41,417 bases of DNA from Photorhabdus khanii NC19 (GTDB taxonomy: Bacteria; Pseudomonadota; Gammaproteobacteria; Enterobacterales; Enterobacteriaceae), in NCBI RefSeq assembly GCF_000517265.1, contig NZ_AYSJ01000013.1, positions 1 to 41,417 on the forward strand. Reading direction: 5' to 3'. Positions 1-41,177 of the stretch are shown here, piece by piece (position 1 is the first letter of the stretch; the number at the start of each line of letters is the position of its first letter). Under the pieces are notes generated by a model. That model did no database searches. It saw only the letters and a list, made by a program, of their open reading frames with translations, and was not told the DNA's origin. A program made the position numbers and the translations under genes.

Positions 1-1
1 G

Positions 2-4130: not shown

Positions 4131-4285
4131 TTTATCTATAGGTAAAAATCGGATTAATATAGTATTACAATAAAAGATACTTGTTGTACTATTAAATTCG
4201 TTATCTTTAATTATTACTATGTCATTATGCAGTCATAATTTTAGGATGTTAGCAATAGAATAGACTAATATATAAGGTGATAAAA

Positions 4286-5557
4286 ATGGAAAAGAAAAAT
4301 AATATATCTAATTCAGAACTTAGTTCAGAAAATAATAATAACAAGGCAGATCTCTCAGCAGATGATTTAAAAAAACGCTTTAAAGCAGGTAGCATTCCAT
4401 TACAAATTGATTATGAACACTTAATTGATATTGCTGATATTGGCCGCAAAGCAACCGGGCAAGCGCCGAAACAGAATGGACCAGGAGCAGGATTGAAACT
4501 GGATGATAATGGTACACTTAATTTAAAAATAGGCACTATCACCAATAAAGACTTTTCTCCCTTAATGTTAAAAGAGGATATTTTGTCTGTAGACCTTGGT
4601 AGTGGTCTGATTAATGAGAACAATGGGATATGTGTTGGTCAAGGCCATGGCATTGTTGTAAATACAGATAATGTGGCTGTTAAAGCTGCCAACGGTATTA
4701 CCGTTGGTGAAAAAGGGGTGGAGGTTAAGGCTAAGAATAATGGCAGTATTTCCGTTGACTCAGATGGCATAGCTGTTAAGTGTTGGAAAGGGGGTGGGAT
4801 TGTAGTAACTGATAATACGGGTCTTTATTTAAAATTGGAGGGAGGAGATGGAAGTAACGCTTGGAGTGGTGTAAGTGGTTTGAGTCTGAGTGAGAGTGGT
4901 GTAAAAGTTAAAGCTAGTAATGGTATTAATGTTGATAAAAATGGTGTTTCAGTTAAAGCGGGCAATGGTATTAAGGTTGATGGTAATGGTGTCAGTATTG
5001 ATCCTGATAAAGTACTCCCCAGAGGAATGATTGTGATGTTCTCTGGTAGTAGTGTTCCTACAGGATGGGCGCTGTGTGATGGTGAGAATGGTACACCTAA
5101 TTTAATCGATCGATTTATTTTAGGTGGAAATTTTGATGGTCTTCATGGAAAGAGTAATACTCCAGTTTCAGGTAATAATAAAGATGACAAATCATTTAAT
5201 TTTAAATCTGATGAAGCCACATTAGATATCAATGGTAAAACAAATGGGATCTCATTATCTATTGGACAAATACCTAACCATAACCATCTTAGTGGAATAG
5301 TTATTGATACAGATATAATGGCTCAACATGGGGCTTTCGCGATCACGACAGACAAGAGAGCTGTAGCCTCTTCAAATAATACCAGAGATAGATTTCTTTA
5401 TTATTCAACCGGAATGACCACCTCTAAAGGAGATGTAAACGGAAGCAGCCCAGAAACACATAATCATGATATTAATTTAAAAAGCATTGGCAAGCATTCC
5501 CATAATAACAGAATAACAGTTCCTTATTATATTCTTGCTTTTATCATGAAAACTTAA
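4286..5557 (+). CDS. pvc13: PVC tail fibre with repeat shaft and phage tail-collar domain, Pvc13-like
   Basis: Receptor-binding fibre of the injection particle. I choose the ATG at 4286 because TAAGG sits correctly upstream; the GTG at 4277 overlaps that ribosome site. The product is about 423 residues. Residues 1-30 are Asn/Ser/Lys-rich. Residues about 40-65 are probably the baseplate anchor. Residues about 110-243 form a shaft of short Gly/Val repeats (NGI-x-V-x(4)-GV-x-VKA) expected to make a trimeric beta fibre. From residue 246 a phage tail-collar domain (RGMIVMFSGSSVPTGWALCDG) is clear, followed by His-rich NHNHLSG and THNHD motifs typical of metal-binding fibre tips, ending at a hydrophobic YILAFIMKT. 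Many PVC fibres instead carry an adenovirus-like knob. Target specificity cannot be read from sequence. Confidence 0.85.
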   Translation: MEKKNNISNSELSSENNNNKADLSADDLKKRFKAGSIPLQIDYEHLIDIADIGRKATGQAPKQNGPGAGLKLDDNGTLNLKIGTITNKDFSPLMLKEDILSVDLGSGLINENNGICVGQGHGIVVNTDNVAVKAANGITVGEKGVEVKAKNNGSISVDSDGIAVKCWKGGGIVVTDNTGLYLKLEGGDGSNAWSGVSGLSLSESGVKVKASNGINVDKNGVSVKAGNGIKVDGNGVSIDPDKVLPRGMIVMFSGSSVPTGWALCDGENGTPNLIDRFILGGNFDGLHGKSNTPVSGNNKDDKSFNFKSDEATLDINGKTNGISLSIGQIPNHNHLSGIVIDTDIMAQHGAFAITTDKRAVASSNNTRDRFLYYSTGMTTSKGDVNGSSPETHNHDINLKSIGKHSHNNRITVPYYILAFIMKT

Positions 5558-5610
5558 TATTTAAAAATTGCAAATTTAAGTCATCCATTTATCGCAAAGA
5601 GAGTATTAAC

Positions 5611-7515
5611 ATGATTTCGAAGCCAAATATATTAAATCGGATTGTTGTTGTTATTGAAGCAAATAATAAACAAGTGGCTAAGAAAGTATTGCACAGTTCC
5701 TTGTTTGACCGGAGAAACATACATAAATTATTAAACTTATACTTTGATAAATATAACTATAATCAGGATATATATTTTGAAAAATTAACTCTGGAACTTG
5801 ATAAAATAAATTTCCGTGACTTAAATTCATTGTTTCCTATTCGGCTTAATGCTGCTTTAAGTAAAGCATTGAAGAAATATCTGGTAAATAATAAGGTGAA
5901 GATTCTCACAGAAGATTCAATGATGCCAGAAAATCTTTTCAAGCCCTCTTTATTACATAGTGGTTACTTGTCCAATATCGAGGAGTTTATTCGATATTTA
6001 CATCAAAAAAGTGCTCAGTTAAATCCTGAAAAGGGAATGGAGAATAATAGAAATATTGATATTAATGTCGATATATTAATTGAACAATTAATGAAAACAG
6101 GGAAAAAATTAACATTATTACTGGCAAAAAGCTGTCTATCTGAACACAGCTTGCAGCGGATTTTATCTATCAGTCAACCTGCTTTATTAACCGCGATTAA
6201 TCGCAAGTTATCAGAGGATACTGATATATTTCAGCATCAAGGAAAGGCGGTTTATTCTTGGCAACTGGTATTGAATGCATTGGGATATATACATCGGCAT
6301 GATATGCAGGAAATACCTAAACCAGATGTGAAAGTGATATTATATATCACGGCTGAACTTGAAAGCAGCATACTTGATGTTGTGTCTATTATTACGTTAT
6401 TTCGCCAGAATATAGCAACTGAGAATGCCTTATTAAATGAATGGTTGAAGCCACTTTGGCAAATAGAATTGATTCCACAACTTTGTAAAAAACACCTCTC
6501 TGTTCAGGAATATGAAAATTTAGTTAATCGTTTTGGTTGTGAAAACCAGAGTTTTAGAAAACAAGCTCTACGGAAAATAACCGAAGTTGATCCATTATTA
6601 ACTGAATTATTACAGGCACTGGAGACAAAGCCTCGGCAACATCTACCACTATTAAATCAGCATCAATGTTCATTAATGGCCACAGCGATTCAAAAAGGAG
6701 AGGTCAAAGCTCAAAATATTCTCCAGCTATTTCAACATCCGGCGTTATATAACAGAGCTGGAACAACTTGGTTAGCGTCGCTATGGCAATTAGTTCCTGT
6801 TTTGCAGATATGTAAAAAACACCTTTCTGCTAAAGAATACCAAGATCTTTCGCAACGTTTTATTCTAAATGATGCAGATAAAAAATTAATTACCGAGGAT
6901 CGACAAGCATTATCGACATTGGGTAACCTGAGCATTACAGGTAATAGCCGTAACCAACCACAAATTATCAATAGATCACACGTTGACCGGGTTTCATTGA
7001 CTAAACAAATTTTCCCGTGTCAGGTCAATAATGCTGGAATATTGGTTTTATGGCCGATGTTACCTGCGTTATTTAATCAGCTTGGTTTGCTTGATGCACA
7101 GAAATTTATCCACCGTCAGGCTCAGTTCAATGCTGTGGGTTTCCTTGATTACCTGATTTGGGGAAACGAAGAAGTACAAACAGAACAAAAGATCTTGAAT
7201 AATATCCTGTGTGGGTTAATGGCTGACGAATTTATTGAATTAGCGCCTCTTGAACCAGAAAAACAGTTAATAATAGAACAATGGCTGGATGCTGTTATCA
7301 GTCAATTTCCTACTTGGAAAAAATTAAGCCGTAATGATGCGCGCCAACTGTTTTTACAACGACCGGGTGAATTGTTGATAGATGATCAGGAAATAAAAAT
7401 CAAAGTACAGCATCAACCATTTGATTTATTATTAACCGACTGGCCGTGGCCATTAAATATAGCAAAACTTCCCTGGCTAAAGAGCCCTTTACAGATTGAC
7501 TGGCAAAATATTTAA
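5611..7515 (+). CDS. pvc14: PVC tape-measure / length-control protein, Pvc14-like
   Basis: A 634-residue protein in the Afp14/Pvc14 position (contractile injection system tape-measure family). Such proteins set tube and sheath length. The N-terminus (FDKYNYNQDIYFEKLTLELD, residues about 44-63) matches the family's conserved opening in which a short helix precedes a predicted EKLxLDLG-like strand. The middle holds two copies of an approximately 33-residue repeat (residues about 276-308 and 385-417) sharing W-L-x(2)-LWQ and CKKHLS-x(2)-EY. The C-terminus is Trp-rich (LLTDWPWPLNIAKLPWLKSP), also typical. GAGAG lies upstream of the ATG. It is followed 9 bases later by the ATPase gene, so the two are co-transcribed. 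Function follows from family and position. Confidence 0.82.
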   Translation: MISKPNILNRIVVVIEANNKQVAKKVLHSSLFDRRNIHKLLNLYFDKYNYNQDIYFEKLTLELDKINFRDLNSLFPIRLNAALSKALKKYLVNNKVKILTEDSMMPENLFKPSLLHSGYLSNIEEFIRYLHQKSAQLNPEKGMENNRNIDINVDILIEQLMKTGKKLTLLLAKSCLSEHSLQRILSISQPALLTAINRKLSEDTDIFQHQGKAVYSWQLVLNALGYIHRHDMQEIPKPDVKVILYITAELESSILDVVSIITLFRQNIATENALLNEWLKPLWQIELIPQLCKKHLSVQEYENLVNRFGCENQSFRKQALRKITEVDPLLTELLQALETKPRQHLPLLNQHQCSLMATAIQKGEVKAQNILQLFQHPALYNRAGTTWLASLWQLVPVLQICKKHLSAKEYQDLSQRFILNDADKKLITEDRQALSTLGNLSITGNSRNQPQIINRSHVDRVSLTKQIFPCQVNNAGILVLWPMLPALFNQLGLLDAQKFIHRQAQFNAVGFLDYLIWGNEEVQTEQKILNNILCGLMADEFIELAPLEPEKQLIIEQWLDAVISQFPTWKKLSRNDARQLFLQRPGELLIDDQEIKIKVQHQPFDLLLTDWPWPLNIAKLPWLKSPLQIDWQNI

Positions 7516-7524
7516 AAGGTTTAT

Positions 7525-9609
7525 ATGAACTCTTTACTTAAAAAGAATCACTGTATGGTGGCTGAATTATGCTGGATTTATCCCCATCTGGAACGTATTG
7601 ATTTGCGGTTACAGCATTACTATTATCAAAACAGAGATAAATACGATTCCTTACCAGAGAGTTTTTTACTCACCGAAGATGAAATAAAACAACGTCTGGT
7701 GACACCATTAGGTATTCCTCATTGGATAATTAAAGAGGATGATATTGTTAGCCTGGCTGAAATCGAAGAAAACCCATCTTTTGATATATTATCCTTATTG
7801 GTTGAACGTTTTGAACTCACTGAATTTGAACGTGATGCTTTATTATTAGGTTTATTACCCCATTTCGACAACCGTTATCATGCGTTATTTGCTGCTTTGC
7901 ATGGTAACAGTAAGAAACAGTGGCCGAGTTTTGCTTTAGCGGTTGAATTATTTAGTGAACGTCAAAGTGATAGGCAATTACTGCAAAACAGCTTCTTACC
8001 GCAAACACCGTTAATTCGTAACCACTTATTACGGCTCAGTAACTATGAGGAACCTATTTGGCTACAAACGCAGTTTTTAACTCACAGCGCTGTCTGGCAT
8101 TTTCTATCAGGACAGAGGGTTATTCTACCACCATTGATAACTTGTGCTTACTGGAATACTCCGGCTTCACAAACTTGGTATCCATCAGCTCTTTATTATT
8201 CACTTGAAAAGATATTATTGAATGAAACGCATGAAATACGTCCGCTGGTAATATTAAAAGGAAAAGAGGGGAGTGACAGAGAATTAGCCGTGAGTAACAT
8301 TATGGCGTTTCATGGTATCAGTACTTTAATCCTTGATTTAGCCTGTCTGCCAGACGAAGAGAACCTAACTGTAATATTTAACTTACTAACAGAGGCAATA
8401 CGGGAAGCCCAGTTACACGATGCTTGTTTATTAATTCGCAACTTTTCTTTACTTGCAGAGGAAAAGAAAATATTGAATAGTGAGTTATCTGCTTTATTGA
8501 ATCAGCCAAAATTACGCGTAGTGTGTTTGATAGAGCCGCGAGACTCATTAGTGTGGATTAAATATTTGCCTATGGTGCAAATCGATATGCCCATAACAAC
8601 ACTGATAGAAAAAAAAACCATGCTAGAAAGAAGCTTACCAAGTCATGCTTCGGATAAAATTAATATTACTCAATTATGTCAGCGTTTTTCATTCACAGCG
8701 GAAACATTACCATTAATCCTTGAAGAAGCGTGTCAATACCAAATACTCCGACAACCGGAAGGCCAATTGGAAGAGCGCGATCTGAGTCAAGCATTAAGTT
8801 TCCGTGCTCAACAGAACTTAGGTAAATTAGCGCAGCGGATAACCCCAAAACGTAGTTTTAATGACTTAGTGGTTTCTGATGAATTAATTCAACAATTGAA
8901 AGAAATTATTGCTGCTATTAATTATCGTGATCAAATATTAGGTTCGGGTTTTCAGGAGAAAATAAGCTATGGTACAGGTATTAGTGCTTTATTTTATGGT
9001 GAATCAGGGACAGGTAAAACGATGGCCGCAGAGATTATTGCTGGGCATTTGGGGGTTGATCTGATTAAGGTCGATCTTTCTACGGTGGTAAATAAATATA
9101 TTGGTGAAACTGAAAAAAATATTTCCCGTATTTTCGATCTGGCCGAAGCGGATTCTGGTGTTCTGTTTTTTGATGAAGCCGATGCCTTATTTGGTAAACG
9201 CAGTGAAACCAAAGATGCCCAGGACAGACACGCTAATATTGAGGTTTCTTATCTGTTACAACGGTTGGAGGATTATCCGGGATTAGTTATTTTAGCCACC
9301 AATAATCGTAGCCATCTGGATAGCGCGTTTAATCGCCGTTTTAGCTTTATTACCCATTTTACTTATCCTGATGAAGAGCTACGTAAAAAAATGTGGCGGG
9401 CAATTTGGCCTGAACAAGTGAGATTATCGGATGAGATTAATTTTGAACATTTGGCTAAACGTGCCGATATAACCGGCGCTAATGTCAGGAATATTGCTTT
9501 ATTATCATCAATGTTGGCAGTAAATGATAATAATGAACAAATTGAAAATAAGTATATCGAGCGAGCAATTATACTTGAATTGAATAAAATTGGGCGATTG
9601 GTTTTTTAA
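7525..9609 (+). CDS. pvc15: PVC AAA+ ATPase, Pvc15/Afp15-like
   Basis: A 694-residue ATPase needed in Afp/PVC systems for particle assembly or payload loading. Residues about 1-450 are a family-specific N-terminal region with a degenerate nucleotide-binding fold. The active AAA+ module occupies about 455-690. Walker A is GESGTGKT at residues 492-499 and Walker B is VLFFDEAD with Asp550/Glu551. A sensor-1 Asn lies in ILATNN and arginine-finger candidates in FNRRF. A conserved DRHANIEVSYLLQRLE helix, characteristic of this ATPase group, lies between. It is soluble with no export signal. The start has AAGG upstream and follows pvc14 by nine bases. Identification is firm; its mechanistic step (disaggregase versus loader) is not settled by the sequence. 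Confidence 0.92.
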   Translation: MNSLLKKNHCMVAELCWIYPHLERIDLRLQHYYYQNRDKYDSLPESFLLTEDEIKQRLVTPLGIPHWIIKEDDIVSLAEIEENPSFDILSLLVERFELTEFERDALLLGLLPHFDNRYHALFAALHGNSKKQWPSFALAVELFSERQSDRQLLQNSFLPQTPLIRNHLLRLSNYEEPIWLQTQFLTHSAVWHFLSGQRVILPPLITCAYWNTPASQTWYPSALYYSLEKILLNETHEIRPLVILKGKEGSDRELAVSNIMAFHGISTLILDLACLPDEENLTVIFNLLTEAIREAQLHDACLLIRNFSLLAEEKKILNSELSALLNQPKLRVVCLIEPRDSLVWIKYLPMVQIDMPITTLIEKKTMLERSLPSHASDKINITQLCQRFSFTAETLPLILEEACQYQILRQPEGQLEERDLSQALSFRAQQNLGKLAQRITPKRSFNDLVVSDELIQQLKEIIAAINYRDQILGSGFQEKISYGTGISALFYGESGTGKTMAAEIIAGHLGVDLIKVDLSTVVNKYIGETEKNISRIFDLAEADSGVLFFDEADALFGKRSETKDAQDRHANIEVSYLLQRLEDYPGLVILATNNRSHLDSAFNRRFSFITHFTYPDEELRKKMWRAIWPEQVRLSDEINFEHLAKRADITGANVRNIALLSSMLAVNDNNEQIENKYIERAIILELNKIGRLVF

Positions 9610-9633
9610 ATATTTGTTAATTTTGGAGTCGAT

Positions 9634-10524
9634 ATGGAAAATATCATTGATCCTGATAATGCTATTGTGGAAGTTAATAACGCATTAAAAGATATTCTAT
9701 TTCAGTATTTAACGAATATTGATATTCGTTTTGATCTGCCAGAAATGGATTTAATTCCATCGAAGCCGACAATAAGTGTATTTCTTTATGATATACATGA
9801 AGATTTACAATTACGTTCTGCTGAACCAAGGCGTTATAACCCTGCAACTAATTTATTATTACCAGGATGGGTAAATATTAATTATAATTATTTAATTACT
9901 TACTGGCATTCGAGTAAACCATCAAGTGATGGTTGTAGTCCAGATAGTCAGCCTGATAATCAGGCTGCAAAAATAATGACTGGTGTTTTGAACGCGTTGA
10001 TTAATAATCGTCAATTATCTAAAATTCCCGGCGCATATACCAGAGTGATCCCACCGCAGGAAAATTTAAATAGCTTGGGTAACTTTTGGCAGGCTCTTGG
10101 TAACCGTCCACGCTTGTCTTTATTGTATTCAGTTACAGCACCTGTAAAACTTCAAGATGTTATAAATATGGTAGAACCGGTTAGAGAGATTTCCCATTCT
10201 ATGAATCAAAAACCAAATTTGGTTAGCGAACAAATAAATCAAGTTTTATCAGAGAAATTATGTATTGATTTAGGTGGCACAGAAGATGTACGTTTTGCTC
10301 TTGCTAAAGTGAATCTGAAAACTGAATTTACCGCAGAGGATAATGAAAGTCAGGAAAGTGAAAAAGTTATTCTTAAGGTTTCTGGCATTACCCGTTCGGA
10401 TTATTTAGAGAGAATAAAAATTATTCTTTCTGGATGGAAAAATAGTCAAAGTGAAATTGTTGAGATAAATGGTGTAGGTATCTTTATTGCTAAAGAAAAT
10501 TCTGATAAGTTAATTGGAATATAA
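9634..10524 (+). CDS. pvc16: PVC tube cap / tail terminator, DUF4255 family, Pvc16-like
   Basis: A 296-residue protein closing the structural operon. Residues about 1-190 match the DUF4255 pattern: an early helix (IVEVNNALKDILFQYL), then ISVFLYDIHEDLQLRSAEPR, then a hydrophobic strand with LLPGWVNINYNYLITYW, then a helix with the KIMTGVLNALINN pattern. In Afp and PVC, Afp16/Pvc16 caps the end of tube and sheath and stops elongation. The C-terminal third (about 200-296) is variable and may bind the sheath. A GGAG ribosome site precedes the ATG, 24 bases after pvc15. The payload gene begins 296 bases downstream, which separates structure from cargo as in other PVC loci. Confidence 0.85.
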   Translation: MENIIDPDNAIVEVNNALKDILFQYLTNIDIRFDLPEMDLIPSKPTISVFLYDIHEDLQLRSAEPRRYNPATNLLLPGWVNINYNYLITYWHSSKPSSDGCSPDSQPDNQAAKIMTGVLNALINNRQLSKIPGAYTRVIPPQENLNSLGNFWQALGNRPRLSLLYSVTAPVKLQDVINMVEPVREISHSMNQKPNLVSEQINQVLSEKLCIDLGGTEDVRFALAKVNLKTEFTAEDNESQESEKVILKVSGITRSDYLERIKIILSGWKNSQSEIVEINGVGIFIAKENSDKLIGI

Positions 10525-10820: not shown

Positions 10821-11753
10821 ATGTTCAAAAATGATGTTTATGAAAAAACAGTTAAATCTGGCAAAGGTAAAACTTCAGATGGAATGCTATTGGATGCATT
10901 ATATTTGGATATCCCTAATGCCAGAGCAGTCATGTCTGCTTATAAGAAAAAGACGCCTAATTTACCTGACTTCAATGAAAAGACGCAATTAATTCTCAGT
11001 GCTTCAAAGAAATTTGGTCAGCTAAAACCTGCAAAGCAACGTGCTTTCTCTGAGCCTGGTTTAAAAGCGAATGGTGTTTCTGACGGAAAATTTATTTATT
11101 CAAAAAACTCTTTGTCGAATTTCGCTGCTCATGCAGGATATGAGCATAATGGTCATTATGACGATGAGTTTGTCAATTTTAAGGATAATGATAGAAATTT
11201 AGCAGAGGGTAAGCTATTTCCTGGAATTAACTTGATTAGGAGGCCATTAATAGAAAAAAACAAAGAAACAAATGAATGGGAAATAAAACAAATAGAGGTG
11301 GGTGCTTATAAGGTTAGTGATATTGATTCTTTTATTTTAGGGATAAATAATATGTATAGTGAAGCAGGTACATCTTTACATCCAATAATAGAATCCCTGA
11401 TCAGAAATCATATTATTAACAATGATTATGTATTACCTACGATGGCAGGTATTGCTGGTTTGCATGCAGAGGTACAAGCACTTAACCATTTATTGATTTT
11501 AGAAGATAAAAGGGCCGGGAAAACTATTGGAAGTCGAAAAATAGGCGAATATATGCGGGATATGCTGAAATCATCTATTTTTACACAGCGATTAACAACA
11601 ATACAAGCGGGAGATGATTTTGCTGCTTGCCATAATTGTTCTGGAATATTGTCAGCGCCAGCTAATGTTATTACTGGTAAGGTGGAAAGTGCGGGCAATA
11701 ATTTTTCATCGACATTATCTCGATATAAGAGATCACAAGAATCACCAATATAA
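10821..11753 (+). CDS. PVC payload: putative YwqJ-like deaminase-fold toxin
   Basis: A 310-residue protein directly downstream of the PVC structural genes, the usual place for the injected effector. The N-terminal 55 or so residues are polar and Lys-rich with MLLDALYLDI, consistent with a PVC packaging leader; there is no Sec signal. The C-terminal domain (about 85-300) ends with LHAEVQALNHLL (His215, Glu217) and, 53 residues later, CHNC (Cys270, Cys273) followed by NVITGK. A HxE plus CxxC zinc site is the hallmark of the cytidine-deaminase superfamily; spacing and the preceding SEAGTSLHPIIESLI segment resemble the YwqJ-like toxin branch. Inferred role: zinc deaminase acting on nucleotides or nucleic acid in the target cell. 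No immunity gene is evident, as expected for a eukaryote-targeting payload. The substrate is unknown. Confidence 0.7.
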   Translation: MFKNDVYEKTVKSGKGKTSDGMLLDALYLDIPNARAVMSAYKKKTPNLPDFNEKTQLILSASKKFGQLKPAKQRAFSEPGLKANGVSDGKFIYSKNSLSNFAAHAGYEHNGHYDDEFVNFKDNDRNLAEGKLFPGINLIRRPLIEKNKETNEWEIKQIEVGAYKVSDIDSFILGINNMYSEAGTSLHPIIESLIRNHIINNDYVLPTMAGIAGLHAEVQALNHLLILEDKRAGKTIGSRKIGEYMRDMLKSSIFTQRLTTIQAGDDFAACHNCSGILSAPANVITGKVESAGNNFSSTLSRYKRSQESPI

Positions 11754-33045: not shown

Positions 33046-34686
33046 ATGATAAACACAACTAAGAATAAATTACTTACTGTCAGCATCAGTGCTGTACTAA
33101 GTATGGTAGTGGCGAGCCAGGTATTTGCTGCAAAAGTGCCTGATGGTGTTCAATTAGCTGATAAACAGGTTTTAGTTCGTAATAACGCCTCTGAGCCGCA
33201 ATCACTGGACCCACATAAGATTGAAGGGGTGCCAGAATCACATTTGGCTCGCGATTTGTTTGAAGGTGTTGTAATCGTTGGCCCGTATGGTGAAATCTTG
33301 CCGGGTTCTGCAACCCGTTGGGAAAATAAAGACTTCACCGTCTGGACATTCCATATGCGTAAAGAGGCTAAGTGGTCTAATGGTGACCCGGTCACTGCGC
33401 ATGATTTTGTTTACAGCTGGCAGCGTTTGGCTGATCCCAATACGGCTTCTCCTTATGAAAGTTATCTCCAATATGCCCATATCACCAATATTGATGACAT
33501 CATCAGTGGCAAAAAGAAACCGGATACTCTGGGTGTAAAAGCACTGGATGACTATACATTACAGCTCACATTGAGTGAAGCGGTTCCTTATCTGCCAAGG
33601 CTTTTGGCTCACTCCTCAATGTCGCCGGTTCATCGGGCTACGGTGGAAAAATATAACGAAAAATGGACTCAACCGCAGAATTTTGTGGGTAATGGCGCTT
33701 TCAAACTGAAAAACTGGGTGGTCAACGAACGTATTGTGATGGAACGTAGCCCAACATACTGGGATAACAAAAATACGGTTATTGATCAGGTCACTTTCCT
33801 GCCAATTTCCTCAGAAGTGACGGATGTAAACCGCTATCGTAGTGGTGAAATTGATATGACTTATACCAATTTGCCGATTGAGTTATTCCAGAAACTGAAA
33901 AAAGAGATCCCGGACGAGTTGCGTATTAACCCACAATTATGTACTTATTATTACGAAATTAATAACGAAAAGCCGCCATTTAATGATCCTCGCGTCCGTA
34001 CTGCATTGAAATTGGCGATGGACCAAGACATTGTGACCAATAAAGTAAAAGCACAGGGTGATATCCCTGCTTACGGTTTTACACCTCCGTTTACTGATGG
34101 TTTTAAAGAGATAAAACCAGCGTGGTTTACCGATTGGAACCAGGAAAAACGTAACCAGGAAGCCAAAAAATTATTGGCTGAAGCGGGTTATACTAAAGAT
34201 AATCCATTGAAGTTTAACTTGCTTTACAATACCTCCGATCTGCATAAAAAAATTGCAATCGCGGTAGCTTCTATTTGGAAGAAGAATTTAGGTGTTGATG
34301 TTCGTTTGGAAAATCAGGAGTGGAAAACTTTCCTGGATACTCGACATCAGGGCAATTACGATGTAGCCCGTTCTGGCTGGTGTGCCGATTACAATGAACC
34401 TTCCTCATTCCTTAATATGTTACTTTCTTACAGCAGTAATAACACCTCTCATTATAAGAGCAGTGAATTTGATAAGCTGATGAAAGAATCCCTGCAAGTA
34501 AAAACTGAGGATGAGCGTGCGGCCGTTTATCAAAAGGCAGAATCACAGTTAGATAAAGATTCAGCCATTGTTCCCCTTTATTACTATGTGAATACCCGGT
34601 TAGTGAAGCCCTATGTTGGTGGTTTTACAGGGAAAGATCCTTTGGATAATTTACACACCAAAGATTTCTATATTATCAAACACTAA
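33046..34686 (+). CDS. oppA: Periplasmic oligopeptide-binding protein OppA (second of tandem)
   Basis: A 546-residue OppA closely resembling the E. coli protein. The signal peptide ends at QVFA-AKVPDG. Conserved stretches include SLDPHKIEGVPES, VTDVNRYRSGEIDMT, LFQKLKKEIPDELR, GDIPAYGFTPPFTDG, WCADYNEPSSFLNMLL and a YIIKH C-terminus. It lies next to oppB and is the probable main receptor of the transporter. In Photorhabdus-like bacteria peptide uptake suits growth in a protein-rich insect cadaver (inference). GGAG lies upstream of the ATG. Confidence 0.95.
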   Translation: MINTTKNKLLTVSISAVLSMVVASQVFAAKVPDGVQLADKQVLVRNNASEPQSLDPHKIEGVPESHLARDLFEGVVIVGPYGEILPGSATRWENKDFTVWTFHMRKEAKWSNGDPVTAHDFVYSWQRLADPNTASPYESYLQYAHITNIDDIISGKKKPDTLGVKALDDYTLQLTLSEAVPYLPRLLAHSSMSPVHRATVEKYNEKWTQPQNFVGNGAFKLKNWVVNERIVMERSPTYWDNKNTVIDQVTFLPISSEVTDVNRYRSGEIDMTYTNLPIELFQKLKKEIPDELRINPQLCTYYYEINNEKPPFNDPRVRTALKLAMDQDIVTNKVKAQGDIPAYGFTPPFTDGFKEIKPAWFTDWNQEKRNQEAKKLLAEAGYTKDNPLKFNLLYNTSDLHKKIAIAVASIWKKNLGVDVRLENQEWKTFLDTRHQGNYDVARSGWCADYNEPSSFLNMLLSYSSNNTSHYKSSEFDKLMKESLQVKTEDERAAVYQKAESQLDKDSAIVPLYYYVNTRLVKPYVGGFTGKDPLDNLHTKDFYIIKH

Positions 34687-34693
34687 TAGTTGC

Positions 34694-34718
34694 AGGGCGG
34701 CCCGGAAAGGGCTGCCTT
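34694..34718 (+). terminator. Intercistronic attenuating hairpin between oppA and oppB
   Basis: GGCGGCCC pairs with GGGCTGCC (one G-T pair) around a GGAAA loop, extended by A-T and G-T pairs. There is no T-tract. Such GC-rich hairpins after binding-protein genes usually stabilise the upstream mRNA and reduce read-through into the membrane genes. Confidence 0.65.
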
Positions 34719-34771
34719 AGTGTCAGATTATTTTAAGGCCAGGGTTTAGGGCCAACACATAGGAACGGGCA

Positions 34772-35692
34772 ATGCTTAAGTTTATTTTACGCCGTTGTTT
34801 AGAGGCGATCCCGACACTTTTTATTCTTATCACTATTTCGTTTTTCATGATGCGGTTGGCACCAGGCAGCCCATTTACTGGTGAGCGGAAATTGCCACCA
34901 GAAGTTATGGCAAATATTGAAGCGAAATATCATCTGAATGACCCCATGTATAAACAATATTTTGATTACTTAATCCAGCTTTCCAAAGGGGATTTTGGGC
35001 CGTCTTTTAAATATAAGGACTACACAGTTAACGATCTGGTCGCGACAGCATTTCCGGTATCGGCTAAATTAGGTGCATCGGCATTTATTATGGCGGTTGT
35101 GCTGGGGGTCAGCGCCGGGGTTATTGCTGCACTTAATCAGAACACAAAGTGGGATTATACCGTGATGGGATTTGCCATGACGGGGGTTGTTATCCCAAGC
35201 TTTGTTGTGGCACCGCTATTGGTGCTGGTGTTTGCTATTCATCTTAAATGGCTGCCGGGAGGAGGCTGGAATGGCGGGGTGCCAAAATTTATGATCTTAC
35301 CCATGGTAGCACTGTCTTTGGCCTATATCGCCAGTATCTCGCGTATCACCCGTGGTTCGATGATAGAAGTGTTGCACTCTAATTTTATCCGTACTGCACG
35401 TGCTAAAGGGTTGCCATTACGTATTATTATATTCCGCCATGCCTTAAAACCCGCATTGCTACCGGTCATCTCTTATATGGGGCCTGCTTTTGTCGGTATT
35501 ATCACCGGCTCAATGGTGATTGAAACAATCTTTGGTTTACCGGGAATAGGGCAGTTATTTGTTAATGGGGCGTTGAACCGTGACTATTCATTGGTATTAA
35601 GCCTGACTATTTTGGTTGGTGGCCTGACTATTCTGTTCAATGCGATTGTTGATGTGTTGTATGCCGTCATCGATCCGAAGATCCGTTATTAA
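34772..35692 (+). CDS. oppB: Oligopeptide ABC transporter permease OppB
   Basis: A 306-residue inner-membrane permease with six membrane segments. The N-terminal MLKFILRRCLEAIPTLFILI and the ABC-coupling EAA-like loop (FIRTARAKGLPLRIIIFRHALKPALLP) are typical of the OppB/DppB family. It forms the heterodimeric channel with OppC. The start is ATG 34772 with AGG upstream. It lies 85 bases after oppA across a hairpin. Confidence 0.96.
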   Translation: MLKFILRRCLEAIPTLFILITISFFMMRLAPGSPFTGERKLPPEVMANIEAKYHLNDPMYKQYFDYLIQLSKGDFGPSFKYKDYTVNDLVATAFPVSAKLGASAFIMAVVLGVSAGVIAALNQNTKWDYTVMGFAMTGVVIPSFVVAPLLVLVFAIHLKWLPGGGWNGGVPKFMILPMVALSLAYIASISRITRGSMIEVLHSNFIRTARAKGLPLRIIIFRHALKPALLPVISYMGPAFVGIITGSMVIETIFGLPGIGQLFVNGALNRDYSLVLSLTILVGGLTILFNAIVDVLYAVIDPKIRY

Positions 35693-35706
35693 GACTGGAG
35701 CGCGCA

Positions 35707-36615
35707 ATGATAGTCAATAAACAAAACAGCGAAGCTCTGGAAAATTTCTCTGAGCAACTGGAAATTGAAGGCCGTAGTTTGTGGCAGGATGCACGACGTC
35801 GTTTTATTCACAACCGGGCAGCGATTGCCAGTTTGTGCTTGCTATCTTTGATTACTTTGTTTGTGATCCTGGCACCGATGCTGGCCCAGTTTACTTACGA
35901 TGATACTGACTGGGCCATGATGTCTATGCCACCTGATTTTGAGTCTGGTCACTATTTCGGTACCGATTCCTCTGGTCGTGATTTACTGGTACGTGTTGCT
36001 ATTGGTGGACGTATTTCATTGATGGTTGGGATTGCCGCAGCTTTGGTTGCCGTAGTCGTTGGAACTTTGTATGGTTCATTATCCGGTTATCTGGGTGGAA
36101 AAATAGACTCAGTGATGATGCGCCTGTTGGAAATTCTGAATTCATTCCCATTCATGTTCTTTGTGATCCTGTTGGTGACCGTTTTTGGACAGAATATTTT
36201 GCTGATATTTGTCGCGATTGGCATGGTGTCATGGTTGGATATGGCGCGTATTGTCCGGGGGCAGACACTAAGCCTGAGACGTAAAGAATTTATTGAAGCA
36301 GCGTTGGTGTGTGGGGTGCCAACCCGTTACATCGTGTTACGCCATATTGTCCCTAATGTATTGGGCGTGGTGGTGGTTTATGCATCTTTATTGGTTCCAA
36401 GCATGATTCTGTTTGAATCATTTCTTAGCTTTCTGGGATTGGGAACGCAGGAGCCATTAAGCAGTTGGGGAGCGTTGTTAAGTGATGGTGCGAATTCGAT
36501 GGAAGTTTCCCCGTGGTTGCTGATGTTTCCTGCCGGTTTTCTGGTGGTGACACTGTTTTGTTTTAACTTTATCGGCGATGGCTTGCGTGATGCCCTCGAT
36601 CCGAAAGATCGTTAA
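35707..36615 (+). CDS. oppC: Oligopeptide ABC transporter permease OppC
   Basis: A 302-residue permease. The cytoplasmic N-terminal tail (SLWQDARRRFIHNRAAIASL) leads into the first membrane helix. The periplasmic GTDSSGRDLLVRVAIGGRISL motif and the EAA-like loop (FIEAALVCGVPTRYIVLRHIVPNVLG) are diagnostic of OppC/DppC. GGAGCG precedes its ATG, 14 bases after oppB. Partner of OppB. Confidence 0.96.
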   Translation: MIVNKQNSEALENFSEQLEIEGRSLWQDARRRFIHNRAAIASLCLLSLITLFVILAPMLAQFTYDDTDWAMMSMPPDFESGHYFGTDSSGRDLLVRVAIGGRISLMVGIAAALVAVVVGTLYGSLSGYLGGKIDSVMMRLLEILNSFPFMFFVILLVTVFGQNILLIFVAIGMVSWLDMARIVRGQTLSLRRKEFIEAALVCGVPTRYIVLRHIVPNVLGVVVVYASLLVPSMILFESFLSFLGLGTQEPLSSWGALLSDGANSMEVSPWLLMFPAGFLVVTLFCFNFIGDGLRDALDPKDR

Positions 36616-36624
36616 GGAGGTAAC

Positions 36625-37623
36625 ATGAACAGCGTTAAAAACCAGAAAAGTTCTGAGCCGTTGTTAATTGTTAAAGATTTGAACGTGACTTTTAGTACCC
36701 CGGATGGGGATGTTACCGCGGTGAACAAGCTGAATTTTGATTTACGGGCAGGGGAAACGCTGGGAATCGTCGGTGAATCTGGCTCTGGAAAATCACAAAC
36801 TGCTTTTGCTCTGATGGGATTGCTTGCCAGAAACGGCACGATTGGCGGCTCTGCTATTTTTAATGGCAGGGAAATTCTTAACTTGCAAGAGAAAGAACTT
36901 AACCGCATGAGAGCGGAAGAAATATCCATGATATTTCAGGATCCAATGACCTCTCTCAATCCTTATATGCGTATTGGTGACCAGCTCACAGAAGTATTAA
37001 TGCTGCATAAACGTATGAGTAAAAGTGAAGCATACCTTGAATCGATTCGGATGCTGGATGCCGTCAAAATGCCGGAAGCGCTTAAACGTATGAGCATGTA
37101 CCCTCATGAGTTTTCTGGTGGTATGCGTCAGCGCGTAATGATTGCAATGGCATTATTATGCCGGCCAAAATTGCTGATTGCTGACGAGCCGACAACTGCA
37201 CTTGATGTTACGGTTCAGGCACAGATTATGATTCTGCTGAATGAACTGAAACAGGAGTTTAATACTGCGATAATTATGATTACTCACGATTTGGGGGTAA
37301 TTGCCGGTGTTTGTGACAAAGTGCTGGTGATGTACGCTGGGCGGACTATGGAGTATGGCACGGCTCGCGAAGTGTTTTATCAGCCAACGCATCCTTATTC
37401 TATTGGCCTTCTTAATGCTGTACCTCGTCTTGATGGTGATGAAGAATCATTGACAACAATTCCGGGGAATCCGCCTAATTTATTACGGTTGCCGAAAGGG
37501 TGTCCGTTCCAGCCACGCTGTCAGTTTGCAGTAGACCATTGTGTAGATTGTGAACCAAAGTTAGAGGCATTTGGCAATGGGCGTTTGCGAGCTTGTTTTA
37601 AAGCACCGGGAGAATTGGTATGA
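36625..37623 (+). CDS. oppD: Oligopeptide ABC transporter ATP-binding protein OppD
   Basis: A 332-residue ATPase. Walker A is GESGSGKS at residues 50-57, the Q-loop is MIFQDPMTSLNP, the signature is SGGMRQRV and Walker B is LLIADEPTTALDVT, followed by an H-loop His in MITHDLG. The C-terminal oligo_HPY domain has CPFQPRCQFAVDHC and further Cys that bind an Fe-S cluster in this subfamily. AAGGAGG lies just upstream. Its stop overlaps the oppF start (ATGA). Confidence 0.97.
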   Translation: MNSVKNQKSSEPLLIVKDLNVTFSTPDGDVTAVNKLNFDLRAGETLGIVGESGSGKSQTAFALMGLLARNGTIGGSAIFNGREILNLQEKELNRMRAEEISMIFQDPMTSLNPYMRIGDQLTEVLMLHKRMSKSEAYLESIRMLDAVKMPEALKRMSMYPHEFSGGMRQRVMIAMALLCRPKLLIADEPTTALDVTVQAQIMILLNELKQEFNTAIIMITHDLGVIAGVCDKVLVMYAGRTMEYGTAREVFYQPTHPYSIGLLNAVPRLDGDEESLTTIPGNPPNLLRLPKGCPFQPRCQFAVDHCVDCEPKLEAFGNGRLRACFKAPGELV

Positions 37624-38621
37624 GTCCGATTGAAGAAAGACGCGTGCTGCTGGAAGTAGCCGATCTGAAAGTTCACTTTGATATCAAAGATGGCAAACAA
37701 TGGTTTTGGCAACCAGCAAAAACTCTGAAAGCGGTTGATGGCGTCACGTTGAGGTTGTATGAAGGGGAAACCCTTGGTGTGGTTGGCGAATCTGGTTGCG
37801 GTAAATCGACTTTTGCCCGTGCAATTATCGGATTGGTCAAGTCTTCCGGTGGCTCGGTCACTTGGTTGGGAAAAAGCCTGCTGGATATGAATGATAAACA
37901 GTGGCGGGATATTCGCAGTGATATCCAGATGATATTCCAGGACCCACTAGCATCCCTGAACCCGAGAATGACGATTGGCGATATTATTGCTGAACCACTG
38001 CGCACGTATCATCCTAAGATGAAAGAGCTGGAAATCAAAGACCGGGTAAAAGCCATGATGATGAAGGTTGGATTGCTGCCGAATCTGATTAACCGCTACC
38101 CGCACGAATTCTCTGGTGGTCAGTGTCAACGTATTGGGATTGCCCGTGCGCTTATTCTTGAACCTAAGTTGGTGATTTGTGATGAACCGGTATCTGCACT
38201 TGATGTCTCCATTCAGGCTCAGGTGGTGAACCTGTTGCAGGAATTACAACGGGAAATGGGGCTGTCGCTGATTTTTATCGCCCATGATCTTGCGGTGGTT
38301 AAGCACATATCTGACCGTGTATTGGTGATGTATCTTGGGCATGCGGTGGAGTTGGGCACTTATGATGAGGTTTATCATAATCCACAGCATCCTTATACCA
38401 AGGCATTGATGTCGGCAGTGCCGGTGCCTGATCCAGATAAAGAACGAAATAAACATATTGAGTTACTGGAAGGTGAATTACCGTCACCGATCAATCCGCC
38501 ATCAGGATGTGTTTTCCGCACACGTTGCCCAATGGCCGATCCTGAATGTGCTAAGACGCGACCCTTGATGGAGGGGAGTTTTCGTCATGCGGTGTCTTGT
38601 TTGAAGGTTGATCCGTTGTAA
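37620..38621 (+). CDS. oppF: Oligopeptide ABC transporter ATP-binding protein OppF
   Basis: A 333-residue ATPase that pairs with OppD. Walker A is GESGCGKST, the signature is SGGQCQRIG, Walker B is LVICDEPVSALDVS and the H-loop is FIAHDLAVV. The C-terminal oligo_HPY region has CVFRTRCPMADPEC. It is translationally coupled to oppD through ATGA. It is the last opp gene. In E. coli oppF is followed by yciU; here an AT-rich accessory segment follows instead. Confidence 0.97.
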   Translation: MSPIEERRVLLEVADLKVHFDIKDGKQWFWQPAKTLKAVDGVTLRLYEGETLGVVGESGCGKSTFARAIIGLVKSSGGSVTWLGKSLLDMNDKQWRDIRSDIQMIFQDPLASLNPRMTIGDIIAEPLRTYHPKMKELEIKDRVKAMMMKVGLLPNLINRYPHEFSGGQCQRIGIARALILEPKLVICDEPVSALDVSIQAQVVNLLQELQREMGLSLIFIAHDLAVVKHISDRVLVMYLGHAVELGTYDEVYHNPQHPYTKALMSAVPVPDPDKERNKHIELLEGELPSPINPPSGCVFRTRCPMADPECAKTRPLMEGSFRHAVSCLKVDPL

Positions 38622-38843: not shown

Positions 38844-38864
38844 CTAAGTAATGGAGACGTTAAT

Positions 38865-38945
38865 ATGAACAATATCGATCTCTCTAAATTATTTACCCCG
38901 AAAGGTCATTTGTACACAGCTGTTGTTCTCATCAATCGAAAGTAA
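38865..38945 (+). CDS. Putative RiPP precursor peptide (26 aa)
   Basis: A 26-codon frame from ATG to TAA with a good ribosome site (GGAGA, seven bases upstream). It starts MNNIDLSKLF and ends AVVLINRK, with a TPKGHLYT middle. There is no signal peptide, Cys, or GG cleavage motif. The polar and amphipathic first half could be a short recognition leader; the second half, with His15, Tyr17, Asn24 and a basic end, could be the core. It is followed by a perfect hairpin and then a HExxH protein and an exporter, an arrangement typical of ribosomal peptide natural products. I do not recognise the peptide. Alternatives are a regulatory leader peptide or a chance small frame. Confidence 0.55.
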   Translation: MNNIDLSKLFTPKGHLYTAVVLINRK

Positions 38946-38961
38946 GCGTCATCTAGTGCGA

Positions 38962-38991
38962 TTAAAGTGTCCAAATATCTGGACACTTTAA
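38962..38991 (+). terminator. Perfect 12-bp hairpin between peptide gene and HExxH gene
   Basis: TTAAAGTGTCCA and TGGACACTTTAA pair perfectly around AATATC. It lies 16 bases after the peptide stop and 25 bases before the next start. The T-tract is weak (CACCTTTATT), so partial read-through is likely. In RiPP operons such hairpins let precursor mRNA outnumber that of the modifying enzyme. Confidence 0.7.
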
Positions 38992-39016
38992 CACCTTTAT
39001 TAATGAGGAATTTGTC

Positions 39017-39976
39017 ATGACTGCTGCCATTGAGAAGAATAAATCGTTTTTTGAAGATGAAGTGTTATCTTCGTTAAAATACCTGTCTGAAAACTTCAAT
39101 ATAGCCTTCAGTGATAAGTTAAAAATCAATTATAATTGGAAGGTTTTTGCCAACTATTTTTTGTGCGTTGATGCGATAAAAGAGCAAGACCAAAAAAATG
39201 CAGAAATTTTCTTAAAATCTGCGTTGAATAACTTGTCTACTCACAGCCCTAATACAATGGTTCCTGGTAGACCGGAAATATTAGTTATTACTGATGCTAA
39301 CATCTCAGAAGAGGTAGCAAAAACCTTAAAAGATATCTATGACAAACCGGATAATGACGTCAATGACGATGGTGTTTATGCATTCGGCCCATTCATGGGG
39401 AACTCAGAAGAAGAGATAACCAAAATACATCAATCATTGGATCTCATGAAATCTGTTTCACCCTATTACTACAACTTTGTCAATTCGTTAATAAAGCACA
39501 TTGTTTTGGTTGGTCAAACTGAACGTGGGGGGATAAAATCGGGGTCAACATTAAAAACGTTGGGATGTATCATCATTTCTCCCAATACGAAGGAAGAGAT
39601 TAGTTCAATGAACCAATACATTGAAGATTTGGTTCATGAGGCATCGCACTCAAAATTATTTTTGGAGCAAACTAAAGATCAGCTTGTCTACAACCCGGTA
39701 GAGAATCTCTACACGGCACCATTTAGAAAAGATAAAAGGCCAATGTCTGGTATCTATCATGCCAATTATGTGCTTGGCAATATCGTGTCTTATTTCAGAC
39801 AGGCTGTTAAAGTTTCTTCCAAAAACGATCTCAATAACAATACGAAGTTCTTGGAAAGAGCATTAACTCGGTATAATGAAACATACAATATCATAGAACA
39901 GTATGGTGACCTAACAGAAAGGGGTTATGCGATATTCAAGGAAATGAAGGAACGAGTTGACCAATGTTTAAATTAA
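39017..39976 (+). CDS. HExxH-motif putative peptide-modification enzyme
   Basis: A 319-residue soluble protein with no signal peptide. A metal site HEASH is at residues 207-211 (EDLVHEASHSKLF). About 30 residues later comes RPMSGIYHANYV (Arg241, Pro242, His248), where His248 is the likely third ligand. A HExxH followed by RP-x-G-x2-H is what I associate with the 'HExxH motif-containing putative peptide modification' family, some members of which are reported as 2-oxoglutarate/iron hydroxylases acting on RiPP precursors. The N-terminal 130 residues are helical and could recognise the leader. GAGGAA precedes the ATG. The end overlaps the exporter gene by 13 bases. A zinc protease is the main alternative, but the flanking peptide and exporter favour modification. 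Confidence 0.65.
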   Translation: MTAAIEKNKSFFEDEVLSSLKYLSENFNIAFSDKLKINYNWKVFANYFLCVDAIKEQDQKNAEIFLKSALNNLSTHSPNTMVPGRPEILVITDANISEEVAKTLKDIYDKPDNDVNDDGVYAFGPFMGNSEEEITKIHQSLDLMKSVSPYYYNFVNSLIKHIVLVGQTERGGIKSGSTLKTLGCIIISPNTKEEISSMNQYIEDLVHEASHSKLFLEQTKDQLVYNPVENLYTAPFRKDKRPMSGIYHANYVLGNIVSYFRQAVKVSSKNDLNNNTKFLERALTRYNETYNIIEQYGDLTERGYAIFKEMKERVDQCLN

Positions 39977-41177
39977 AAAGCAGTCAATCACTATATTTTT
40001 TAATTTCATACATCCTCAACTCGATGAATAATTGGGTTTTTAAATTTATCGCTCCGTTAGTGCTTTATTCAGAAACAAAATCATTGCAAATGATGACGAT
40101 TAGCTATGGATTGCTATTTACACCAAACATCATTGCACCTCCGATAGCTAATCTACTCGAAAACAGGCTTGCAAAAAAAGCAAGCCTATTAATACTGAAT
40201 TTAATTGGTTTGTTTTTATGTCTTTTTTCCTATATCTACTTTGAGATTAATTTTAGTAACCTTGTTTTTTTATGGTGGTATTTTTGTTATCATCCATTCT
40301 TATCTTATACCAAACCATTATCCACAGTATATTAAAAGAGATATTGCCACATAAAGAAGATATGGAAGAAATGAGCAGGAAAATTGCTTTTGTCGATAGC
40401 CTGTTTCCTGCTATAGGACCAATGATCGGCGCAACCATATTAAGTTATTTAGGTTATAATAATGTATTTCTTATTATTGGTGTCATATATGTGATCTCTA
40501 TATTTATTTTAGCTAAAATAAATATAGAGTTGAGAATAAAAACCACCGGTGAGAATTTCATCTTAAAAACCATCAAAGGTTTTAGACTTATTAAGGATAA
40601 TTTGTTTGTTAATTATTTGATGAGGCGTTTTTTCTTTTCAAACATAGCGTTACATGGATTTCAATCTATACTGACGTATTTTTTAATCGAAAAATTTAAT
40701 TTAACAGATATAAAGTTAGGATTATTCTTTGCTATTTCCACTATCGGGTTAATTATAGGAGTAAGGATCGGCAGGATTATGTATAAGAACAATGTTAATA
40801 AATGGCATTTAATTTCCATTACAGGGATAGTATGTTCTTTGTGCTTAATTTTCATACCCATAACCAATAATATCTATATTGCATCAATAGCATGGAGTAT
40901 TGTTATGTTGTTGAGTGCCATCAACTTAATTGTCTTTTATACTGAGAGACAGACTAATTATCACCAAGATGAAGTGGTGAGCGTTATTTCTGCATCCTAC
41001 ATGATTATCTATTCTGCAATACCGTTTGGCTCTGTTGTTTCTTACATTTTGTCACGTTATATGCAATCAAATGATGCTATGATGATATTAGGTACTTATT
41101 TATTTATCATCAGCATTTATTTCTTATATGAGGCGCTGAGGAGTACAAAAGTAAAAGATGAAATTGATGTATCTTAA
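39964..41177 (+). CDS. MFS exporter, reading frame split at a T7 slippery site
   Basis: Two overlapping frames (39964-40335, and the -1 frame from 40272 to 41177) together encode one MFS-type transporter of about 404 residues with roughly 12 hydrophobic segments. The first part has N-terminal helices (MFKLKSSQSLYFLISYILNS). The second resumes as MVVFLLSSILILYQ with the typical loop KEILPHKEDMEEMSRKIAF and LFPAIGPMIGATIL. The junction is seven Ts (40265-40271) then A, read in frame as U UUU UUA, a classic -1 slippery heptamer. One extra T would also restore the frame. It overlaps the HExxH gene, so export of its product is the likely job. It may be frameshift-expressed, phase-variable, a pseudogene or a sequencing indel. 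Confidence 0.7.

Follow-up and report, generated by a model that had tools for sequence, protein, structure and literature searches.

A candidate one-enzyme RiPP locus in Photorhabdus khanii NC19: a 26-residue peptide, a HExxH-type hydroxylase and an MFS exporter frame

A short peptide gene beside a HExxH enzyme gene

What is made by a gene of 26 codons that stands just ahead of the gene for a HExxH-motif enzyme and an exporter reading frame? We addressed this question in Photorhabdus khanii NC19, using a 41,417-nucleotide stretch of contig NZ_AYSJ01000013.1 (the window), where a peptide open reading frame (ORF), a hairpin, the HExxH gene and a major facilitator superfamily (MFS) reading frame follow one another, all on the + strand. 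Our preferred answer, to which we assign a probability of about 0.72, is that the locus is a one-enzyme cluster for a ribosomally synthesised and post-translationally modified peptide (RiPP), in which the 26-residue peptide would undergo leader-guided oxidation and then be exported by the MFS protein. Its features are the following.

38853..38856, + strand: GGAG, likely ribosome-binding site of the peptide gene, 8 nt ahead of the ATG (from the sequence)
38865..38945, + strand: putative 26-residue precursor peptide MNNIDLSKLFTPKGHLYTAVVLINRK, with the leader motif NIDLSKLF at its N-terminus and a putative core from K13 onward (from the ORF listing)
38962..38991, + strand: perfect 12-bp hairpin with a weak T tail, between the peptide and enzyme genes (from folding)
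39017..39976, + strand: predicted alpha-ketoglutarate (aKG)-HExxH-type peptide hydroxylase of 319 residues (from family profile and motifs)
39635..39649, + strand: HEASH (residues 207–211), the HExxH motif and expected metal site
39737..39760, + strand: RPMSGIYH (residues 241–248), with R241 and H248 invariant; aligned with RPPSGLLH of ChlH
39964..40335, + strand: first part (123 residues) of the MFS exporter frame, overlapping the enzyme stop and running out of frame at its end
40272..41177, + strand: remainder of the MFS exporter frame (301 residues) in a different frame, with a PF07690 match

The original prediction, made from the letters alone, had described a 26-codon gene with a good ribosome site and a perfect hairpin, in a co-directional, AT-rich group of genes placed after oppF. 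All of this was borne out: the GC content is 28–38% in the locus versus 40–48% across 34000–38500, and the ORF just upstream (37620–38621) is presumably oppF, of the oligopeptide-transport operon opp. AGGA or GGAG likewise precedes the peptide ORF in all 11 loci inspected. Two details needed correction. HEASH had been read properly, but the motif downstream is RP-x2-G-x2-H rather than RP-x-G-x2-H; the MFS gene does overlap the end of the enzyme gene, but its frame is split between two ORFs instead of being single and intact.

The enzyme belongs to the aKG-HExxH family

The enzyme matches the NCBIfam profile TIGR04267 (aKG-HExxH-type peptide beta-hydroxylase) with 66.8 bits (E 2.3e-18) against a curated cut-off of 40 bits, so the profile search that had been suggested as a check came out positive. 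Residues H207, E208, H211, R241, P242, G245 and H248 are invariant in all 12 aligned proteins; R241 would be the aKG-binding arginine and H248 the third metal ligand. The protein has a ChlH-type fold, and structure searches returned ChlH and SjiH; no other fold family stood out in them, an absence that excludes nothing. Within the 319 residues no family other than TIGR04267 matched above cut-off and no fused radical SAM domain was found, nor is there a radical SAM gene among the ORFs from oppF to the end of the window. We conclude that, by family and fold, this is an aKG-HExxH-type peptide hydroxylase, of a family already known and already associated with RiPP pathways. The three gene identities first proposed (precursor peptide, peptide-modifying HExxH enzyme and MFS exporter) are supported, as is the lack of an adjacent radical SAM, YcaO or lanthionine enzyme.

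The small ORF recurs beside related enzymes

Tallies of relatives rest on genome samples, except for the surveys that covered 12 genomes of the genus. In a tree of 26 chosen rows (near-identical rows, L041 and the actinobacterial L039 and L045 were among those omitted), the window's enzyme grouped with that of genome G179 (100/100) within a 13-row clade (99/97). An ORF of 23–32 residues by the enzyme gene is intact in 10 members of this clade, damaged in two and missing from one; conservation of the small ORF beside HExxH homologues, on which the original prediction depended, was therefore found.

A 27-residue ORF, MKNFDSSKVV[EK]IKSPLSGWAVNDKNDD, lies just 5' of the enzyme gene in P. australis and P. 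caribbeanensis/P. heterorhabditis. Morganella morganii, M. psychrotolerans DI-3 and a Pantoea agglomerans plasmid carry 23-residue peptides of the type MKKLDKSKLLKIKSPLSGWSFSK, with similar peptides in 'Martelella alba' BGMRC 2031 and G491; the peptide of Xenorhabdus sp. IM139775 is MNNFNSENVVKVKSPLAHWTANDKKDD, and the tenth intact ORF, that of G1004, has 32 residues and starts MKLDMSKLIV. Both damaged peptides, in X. bovienii (no ATG) and M. morganii FAM24679 (frameshift), are still recognisable; that of M. psychrotolerans DSM 17886, outside the tree rows, is damaged as well. X. bovienii T228 (L035 ~5810–5895) has ATT where ATG is expected, which is either a rare start codon or the mark of a dead gene. 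G179 has no peptide ORF, and a transposase gene stands directly 5' of its enzyme gene. A degenerate second peptide copy (MKNFDSSKVVKIKLPLSGWAVL, with a GTG start) and a fragment of the HExxH gene lie at L019 14065–14188, the remains of a duplicated cluster.

The order peptide–hairpin–enzyme–MFS is repeated in Photorhabdus, Xenorhabdus, Morganella, the Pantoea plasmid, 'Martelella' and G491. Mostly judged by eye, a transporter gene lies 3' of the enzyme gene in 12 of the 13 clade members, of MFS type in 11 (two of them, the window's and that of L042, being split) and of another type in G1004. No other peptide-modifying enzyme was recognised by eye, from the first 80 residues, near the Morganella, Pantoea, 'Martelella' and G491 clusters; the only regular extra neighbours noted in the clade are a DUF6817 protein (Photorhabdus and Xenorhabdus) and an M3-type peptidase ORF (Photorhabdus). 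The Pantoea plasmid is typed as conjugative, and the gene table of its record has no gene at the position of the peptide. Wider searches added nothing: a single-sequence scan of genome contigs yielded no relative among 33 candidates, E. coli genomes gave no match, phages gave none with the Morganella enzyme as query, and a DNA pattern for KSPLSGW plus two further residues, which needs the exact form and may have missed unsampled carriers, occurred in 0 of 197 genomes of the order.

The window's own peptide has M1, D5, S7, K8, K13 and L16 in common with the three relatives first aligned. Scored against a profile of the relatives' peptides (first 18 residues, window excluded from the profile), it ranked 16th of 20,771 distinct small ORFs drawn from the collected loci rather than from a whole genome; nine of the 15 ORFs above it are family members or a degenerate copy, and six are unrelated. 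The rank alone lends modest support, whereas rank and position just 5' of the enzyme gene together make a persuasive sequence-based case for a real gene. Because relatives in other bacteria have a counterpart, we regard the peptide as most likely a true gene and not a chance reading frame.

A leader motif extends beyond the clade

The motif hydrophobic-D-x-x-K-L-L was present in an upstream ORF at 20 of 38 HExxH loci; the reverse strand gave no match at any of the 38, and shuffles predicted 1.07. The survey used one regular expression, applied to ORFs at most 600 bases upstream of the enzyme frame or overlapping its start; the expression had been shaped by Enterobacterales loci and some more distant ones, and the ORF limits differed slightly between its two uses. 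Thirty-nine loci had been chosen, one of which was dropped for short upstream sequence; the remaining 38 are not independent, given repeated Photorhabdus and Morganella loci. Omitted beforehand were duplicate copies, cut or remnant enzymes (L023, L024, L025, L046, L058, L061), the distant L021, L022 and L028, and the weak or unmatched L108–L110, L117 and L120–L126. Among these, L117 and L122 match the expression, apparently by chance; L108, L109, L110, L120 and L125 do not, and L121, L123, L124 and L126 have no enzyme match to anchor the search. Of the loci inspected only after the expression had come into use, four of the six with >100 bits carry the motif.

By sequence, the precursors have a leader–core organisation, with a common N-terminal motif and tails that differ between groups. 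At distant loci the motif-bearing peptides reach 33–79 residues and have long, partly repeated tails. The upstream peptide of L094 has VILDSNKLLGFK, with three GAKIGKAP units; other starts are VKLDVSKLYGF (L062), SIDPSKLLG (L096), IKLDATKLLG (L095), IKLDETKLLGF with GLKMGGK units (L115) and SKLDTGKLFGF with two LGRLFSKRG units (L116). Three of these, ahead of HExxH genes, are candidate multi-core RiPPs with repeats.

L094 4557–4796, + strand: candidate multi-core precursor
L115 868–1065, + strand: candidate multi-core precursor
L116 846–1055, reverse complement: candidate multi-core precursor

ATP-grasp or cyanophycin-synthetase-like ORFs adjoin L062 and L094 (the cyanophycin-synthetase-like one by L094), so the HExxH enzyme may not act alone at these two loci.

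Candidate sites of modification

Three residues, His15, Asn24 and Asp5, had been put forward as sites of hydroxylation. Asp5 was dropped: it is part of the shared leader motif, which is also found on far longer peptides, and for this reason would serve recognition rather than modification. Nor is Asn24 supported, lying as it does in the non-conserved tail. Trp19 was dropped as an essential core residue, being absent from the window peptide. His15 fared better and is still a fair candidate. The window has His at position 15, where most relatives have Pro, X. bovienii has Gln (in the ORF lacking ATG), and G491 and, in a by-eye alignment, G1004 have Ala; the relatives' Pro, Gln and Ala are residues on which characterised family members act. 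Reported targets of family members are His, Asp, Phe, Gln and Pro, and Ala with backbone cleavage (PMC12636437, PMC13060819). Because the residues found at position 15 are all among these types, this residue or the conserved Leu/Ile16 appears to be the likeliest site, judging from one alignment column.

Codon changes and the hairpin

Between near kin, synonymous and nonsynonymous changes in the peptide gene numbered 4:0, 9:1, 11:1 and 9:3 (of 24 codons; raw counts, with the stop codon counted in). In a six-member Morganella–Pantoea group, all 15 pairs show higher identity in the peptide DNA than in either the upstream DNA or the spacer; the L026/L042 identities, for example, are 0.85 for the peptide versus 0.71 upstream and 0.52 in the spacer. 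The expectation that the peptide DNA would be better conserved than its flank held in all these pairs and was uninformative for the window, where both appear saturated.

The window's spacer folds at -19.6 kcal/mol, whereas its shuffled versions average -10.1 (z -3.77) and not one of 200 reaches its stability, a control that applies to this spacer only. With the most stable hairpins modelled, one lies between the peptide and enzyme genes in 11 of 11 loci, differing in sequence from locus to locus. It is possibly a partial terminator or a stabiliser that sets the ratio of peptide to enzyme.

State of the NC19 copy

The 301-residue MFS part matches PF07690 with 62.1 bits (cut-off 33.4), and the 123-residue part scores 19.3 bits, below the cut-off. 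In the sister genome G010 (~94% identical here) a single MFS ORF of 404 residues is open (L023 8736–9950), from which the window differs by one base of length in a T-rich stretch near 40270; scattered N occur in the record just past the window end. Mutation and sequencing error are indistinguishable as causes of the break, and an error in the record is possible. Compared with G010, the 301-codon part has 49 synonymous and 25 nonsynonymous changes, and the first 92 codons have 2 and 3.

At this position G010 keeps an open MFS, but the peptide and ~79% of the enzyme are deleted. In 8 of the 12 genomes of the genus, oppF is followed by the next genes with no insert between them (132–286 bases); G004 carries a different HExxH cluster there, and G011 apparently its remnant. 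A Yersinia plasmid has only an enzyme stub and the MFS. Because of the frameshift, the G179 transposase, the Yersinia stub and the broken genes in relatives, the group looks like an accessory trait that is frequently gained and lost. We read the window locus as a divergent member of this one-enzyme group, and its copy may be decaying.

A proposed pathway and its alternatives

In the pathway that we favour, the hairpin behind the peptide gene would limit read-through and leave the peptide in excess over the enzyme. The HExxH enzyme would bind the N-terminal leader motif (hydrophobic-D-x-S-K-L-[LF]) and use Fe(II), O2 and aKG to oxidise one or a few C-terminal side chains, with beta-hydroxylation of residue 15 (His in the window) or of the adjacent Leu16 as the most likely reaction. 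The product, which might or might not be trimmed by peptidases encoded elsewhere, would be exported by the MFS protein and would probably act outside the cell on neighbouring bacteria; with the exporter frame broken in this strain, the export step may not run. The conserved peptide, gene order and hairpin in relatives, the family and fold of the enzyme and the common leader motif were computed, and we infer that the peptide is the substrate, which reaction takes place and where, what the hairpin does, and that the product is exported and bioactive. That the peptide is secreted, and that it has an antibacterial or signalling role, we only guess from the exporter, the scattered occurrence of the locus and its plasmid copies.

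Several observations weigh against this proposal. The putative activity of the enzyme on the peptide is deduced from sequence, and in three described pathways (pfl/pos, pes and bpm) aKG-HExxH enzymes accompany other modifying enzymes. Past the leader motif the window peptide has only K13 and L16 in common with the family, and the six unrelated ORFs of 20,771 outscore it. Its DNA is 0.57–0.65 identical to that of nine relatives, with 0.61–0.68 upstream, and upstream identity equals or exceeds that of the peptide in 8 of 9 pairs, values that we read as saturation in AT-rich DNA; because the upstream DNA is at least as alike in these 8 pairs, the comparison cannot demonstrate selection on the peptide of the window itself. 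Codon counts for distant pairs are weaker, at 7:6 (L056/L060) and 10:7 (L033/L060). The motif is missing at 18 of the 38 loci, namely L035, L036 and L041 (damaged peptide), L037 (peptide intact but lacking the motif K), L059 (no peptide) and 13 more distant ones, and two of the 20 matches, L063 (a GG-type peptide) and L027, look like chance, which makes 18 of 38 the safer count. Damage is common in the clade: M. psychrotolerans and G491 have a split enzyme, and that of P. australis meets an early TGA. The window's own branch contains no fully intact copy, since G179 (62% identical) lacks the peptide and the MFS, G010 lacks the peptide and most of its enzyme, and the window's MFS is frameshifted.

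The enzyme might cleave the peptide instead, oxidatively with an amide end or hydrolytically, giving a short linear piece with no need of a separate protease. PflC and PosC are reported to make an oxidative cut in front of the Ala of ARMD, and PflC also to hydrolyse leader-less peptide (PMC12636437); Ala occupies position 15 in G491, Ala19 occurs in the window peptide, and no peptidase gene was recognised by eye beside the Morganella, Pantoea, 'Martelella' and G491 clusters. We nevertheless consider cleavage improbable, as PesO and ChlBH are reported to hydroxylate, Pro, Gln or His at position 15 is at odds with the small-residue preference reported for cleavage, and the M3-type peptidase ORF beside the Photorhabdus clusters would be needless if the enzyme cut. 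The layout of a short ORF, a hairpin (in 11 of 11 loci) and a gene is also that of a classic attenuator, in which the ORF would control read-through to the enzyme and exporter and the peptide would have no fate of its own. This is harder still to accept: the leader motif also starts the 33–79-residue peptides with partly repeated tails ahead of distant HExxH genes, conservation extends to the C-terminal KIKSPLSGW part, changes among close kin being mostly synonymous, and the ORF has no run of one codon type, unlike many amino-acid attenuators.

Least probable of all, and only slightly credible, is that the enzyme modifies another protein or a small molecule and the 26-residue ORF is a chance frame. 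In its favour, AT-rich DNA abounds in short ORFs, the core of the window's peptide is unlike those of its relatives and the peptide DNA shows no more conservation than the flank; we dropped this reading on the conservation in relatives, given that 10 of the 13 clade members have an intact ORF in the same place with a similar N-terminus and that the motif occurs at 20 of 38 loci versus 0 on the reverse strand and 1.07 from shuffles. Compatible with oxidation and export for the group as a whole is the view that the locus in this strain is a decaying remnant whose product is no longer exported. The MFS frameshift, the losses in G010, the transposase and missing MFS of G179, the Yersinia stub and the site empty in 8 of 12 genomes all point that way, yet we hold this view to be rather doubtful, though the strongest of the alternatives: the peptide and enzyme frames are open with all invariant residues kept, the 49:25 ratio in the larger MFS piece implies that selection held for most of that time, and the one-base difference in a T-rich stretch is perhaps a sequencing error.

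Relation to known systems

Microcin C resembles the window locus in its very short precursor (the MccA heptapeptide), its MFS exporter (MccC) and its compact cluster, and differs in that its peptide-nucleotide is made by a ThiF-like enzyme.

In ChlBH of Chlorogloeopsis (PDB 8s5f) the aKG-HExxH domain forms one protein with a radical SAM enzyme and is reported to need a cyclophane made beforehand, whereas the window enzyme stands alone beside a 26-residue ORF. SjiH (PDB 22ob/22nu), the other structure match, is listed as a 'radical SAM core domain-containing protein'. PflC and PosC of Pseudomonas are closer: there too an unfused aKG-HExxH enzyme lies adjacent to a leader-bearing precursor, with no protease gene in the cluster (PMC12636437). 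They differ in a long nitrile-hydratase-like leader and a core of consecutive Gln followed by ARMD, and the pfl cluster in an MNIO-nitroreductase fusion, a GNAT and two transporters (PMC12636437). PesO, from the nitrilobacillin cluster of Peribacillus, is an aKG-HExxH enzyme that hydroxylates one Pro, the residue which most relatives have at the position of the window's His15; its cluster differs in having MNIO and asparagine-synthetase-like partner enzymes and M16 peptidases (PMC13060819).

We found no publication on this arrangement, its peptides (KSPLSGW/SPLSGW, SKLLG leader) or SjiH in a search that left most subscription literature uncovered; judged by title, none of the listed papers on HExxH proteins and Photorhabdus dealt with these enzymes. 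The one-enzyme form with a 23–32-residue precursor and a shared leader motif appears to be new. A broader proposal, on which we would place even odds, is a RiPP class of one stand-alone aKG-HExxH enzyme, one leader-bearing precursor of 23–32 residues and one exporter, in which the motif hydrophobic-D-x-x-K-L-L-G/K would recruit such enzymes across Pseudomonadota and position 15, varying between Pro, His, Gln and Ala, would be oxidised in every case. If our preferred reading of the locus is right, it would be a very small complete natural-product cluster of one peptide, one enzyme and one exporter, plasmid-borne in one case. It would offer a clean two-component test of peptide recognition and oxidation by aKG-HExxH enzymes free of partner enzymes, and the leader motif would allow further precursors to be found that ordinary gene calling easily misses. 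For the host, it would mean a secreted peptide encoded at a site of differing biosynthetic clusters among Photorhabdus genomes.

Other genes at the site and in the window

In P. caribbeanensis G004 the same site holds, at L020 5680–13608, two JmjC/cupin proteins, an SBP_bac_5 protein, a ThiF-family protein and a 279-residue HExxH protein, and by eye also an MFS transporter and a 617-residue ABC-F-like ATPase; a similar set occurs in L027, from another genus. This may be an undescribed peptide-antibiotic cluster. In G011 only an ABC-F-like ORF is left at the site (L092 640–2403), its start similar to that in L020, as if resistance had outlived production.

Past the window end, direct copies of the downstream flank (L029 3846–4178 and 11217–14501) enclose ~7 kb with aminotransferase-, O-methyltransferase- and MFS-type genes and weak ATP-grasp- and AMP-binding-type ones, another small biosynthetic cluster, which among the 12 genomes only the window's carries at this site. 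At the other end, window positions 1–10524 resemble, by eye, the end of an extracellular contractile injection cluster of the Photorhabdus virulence cassette type, and a 310-residue protein after these injection-type genes (10821–11753) is, also by eye, a possible cargo.

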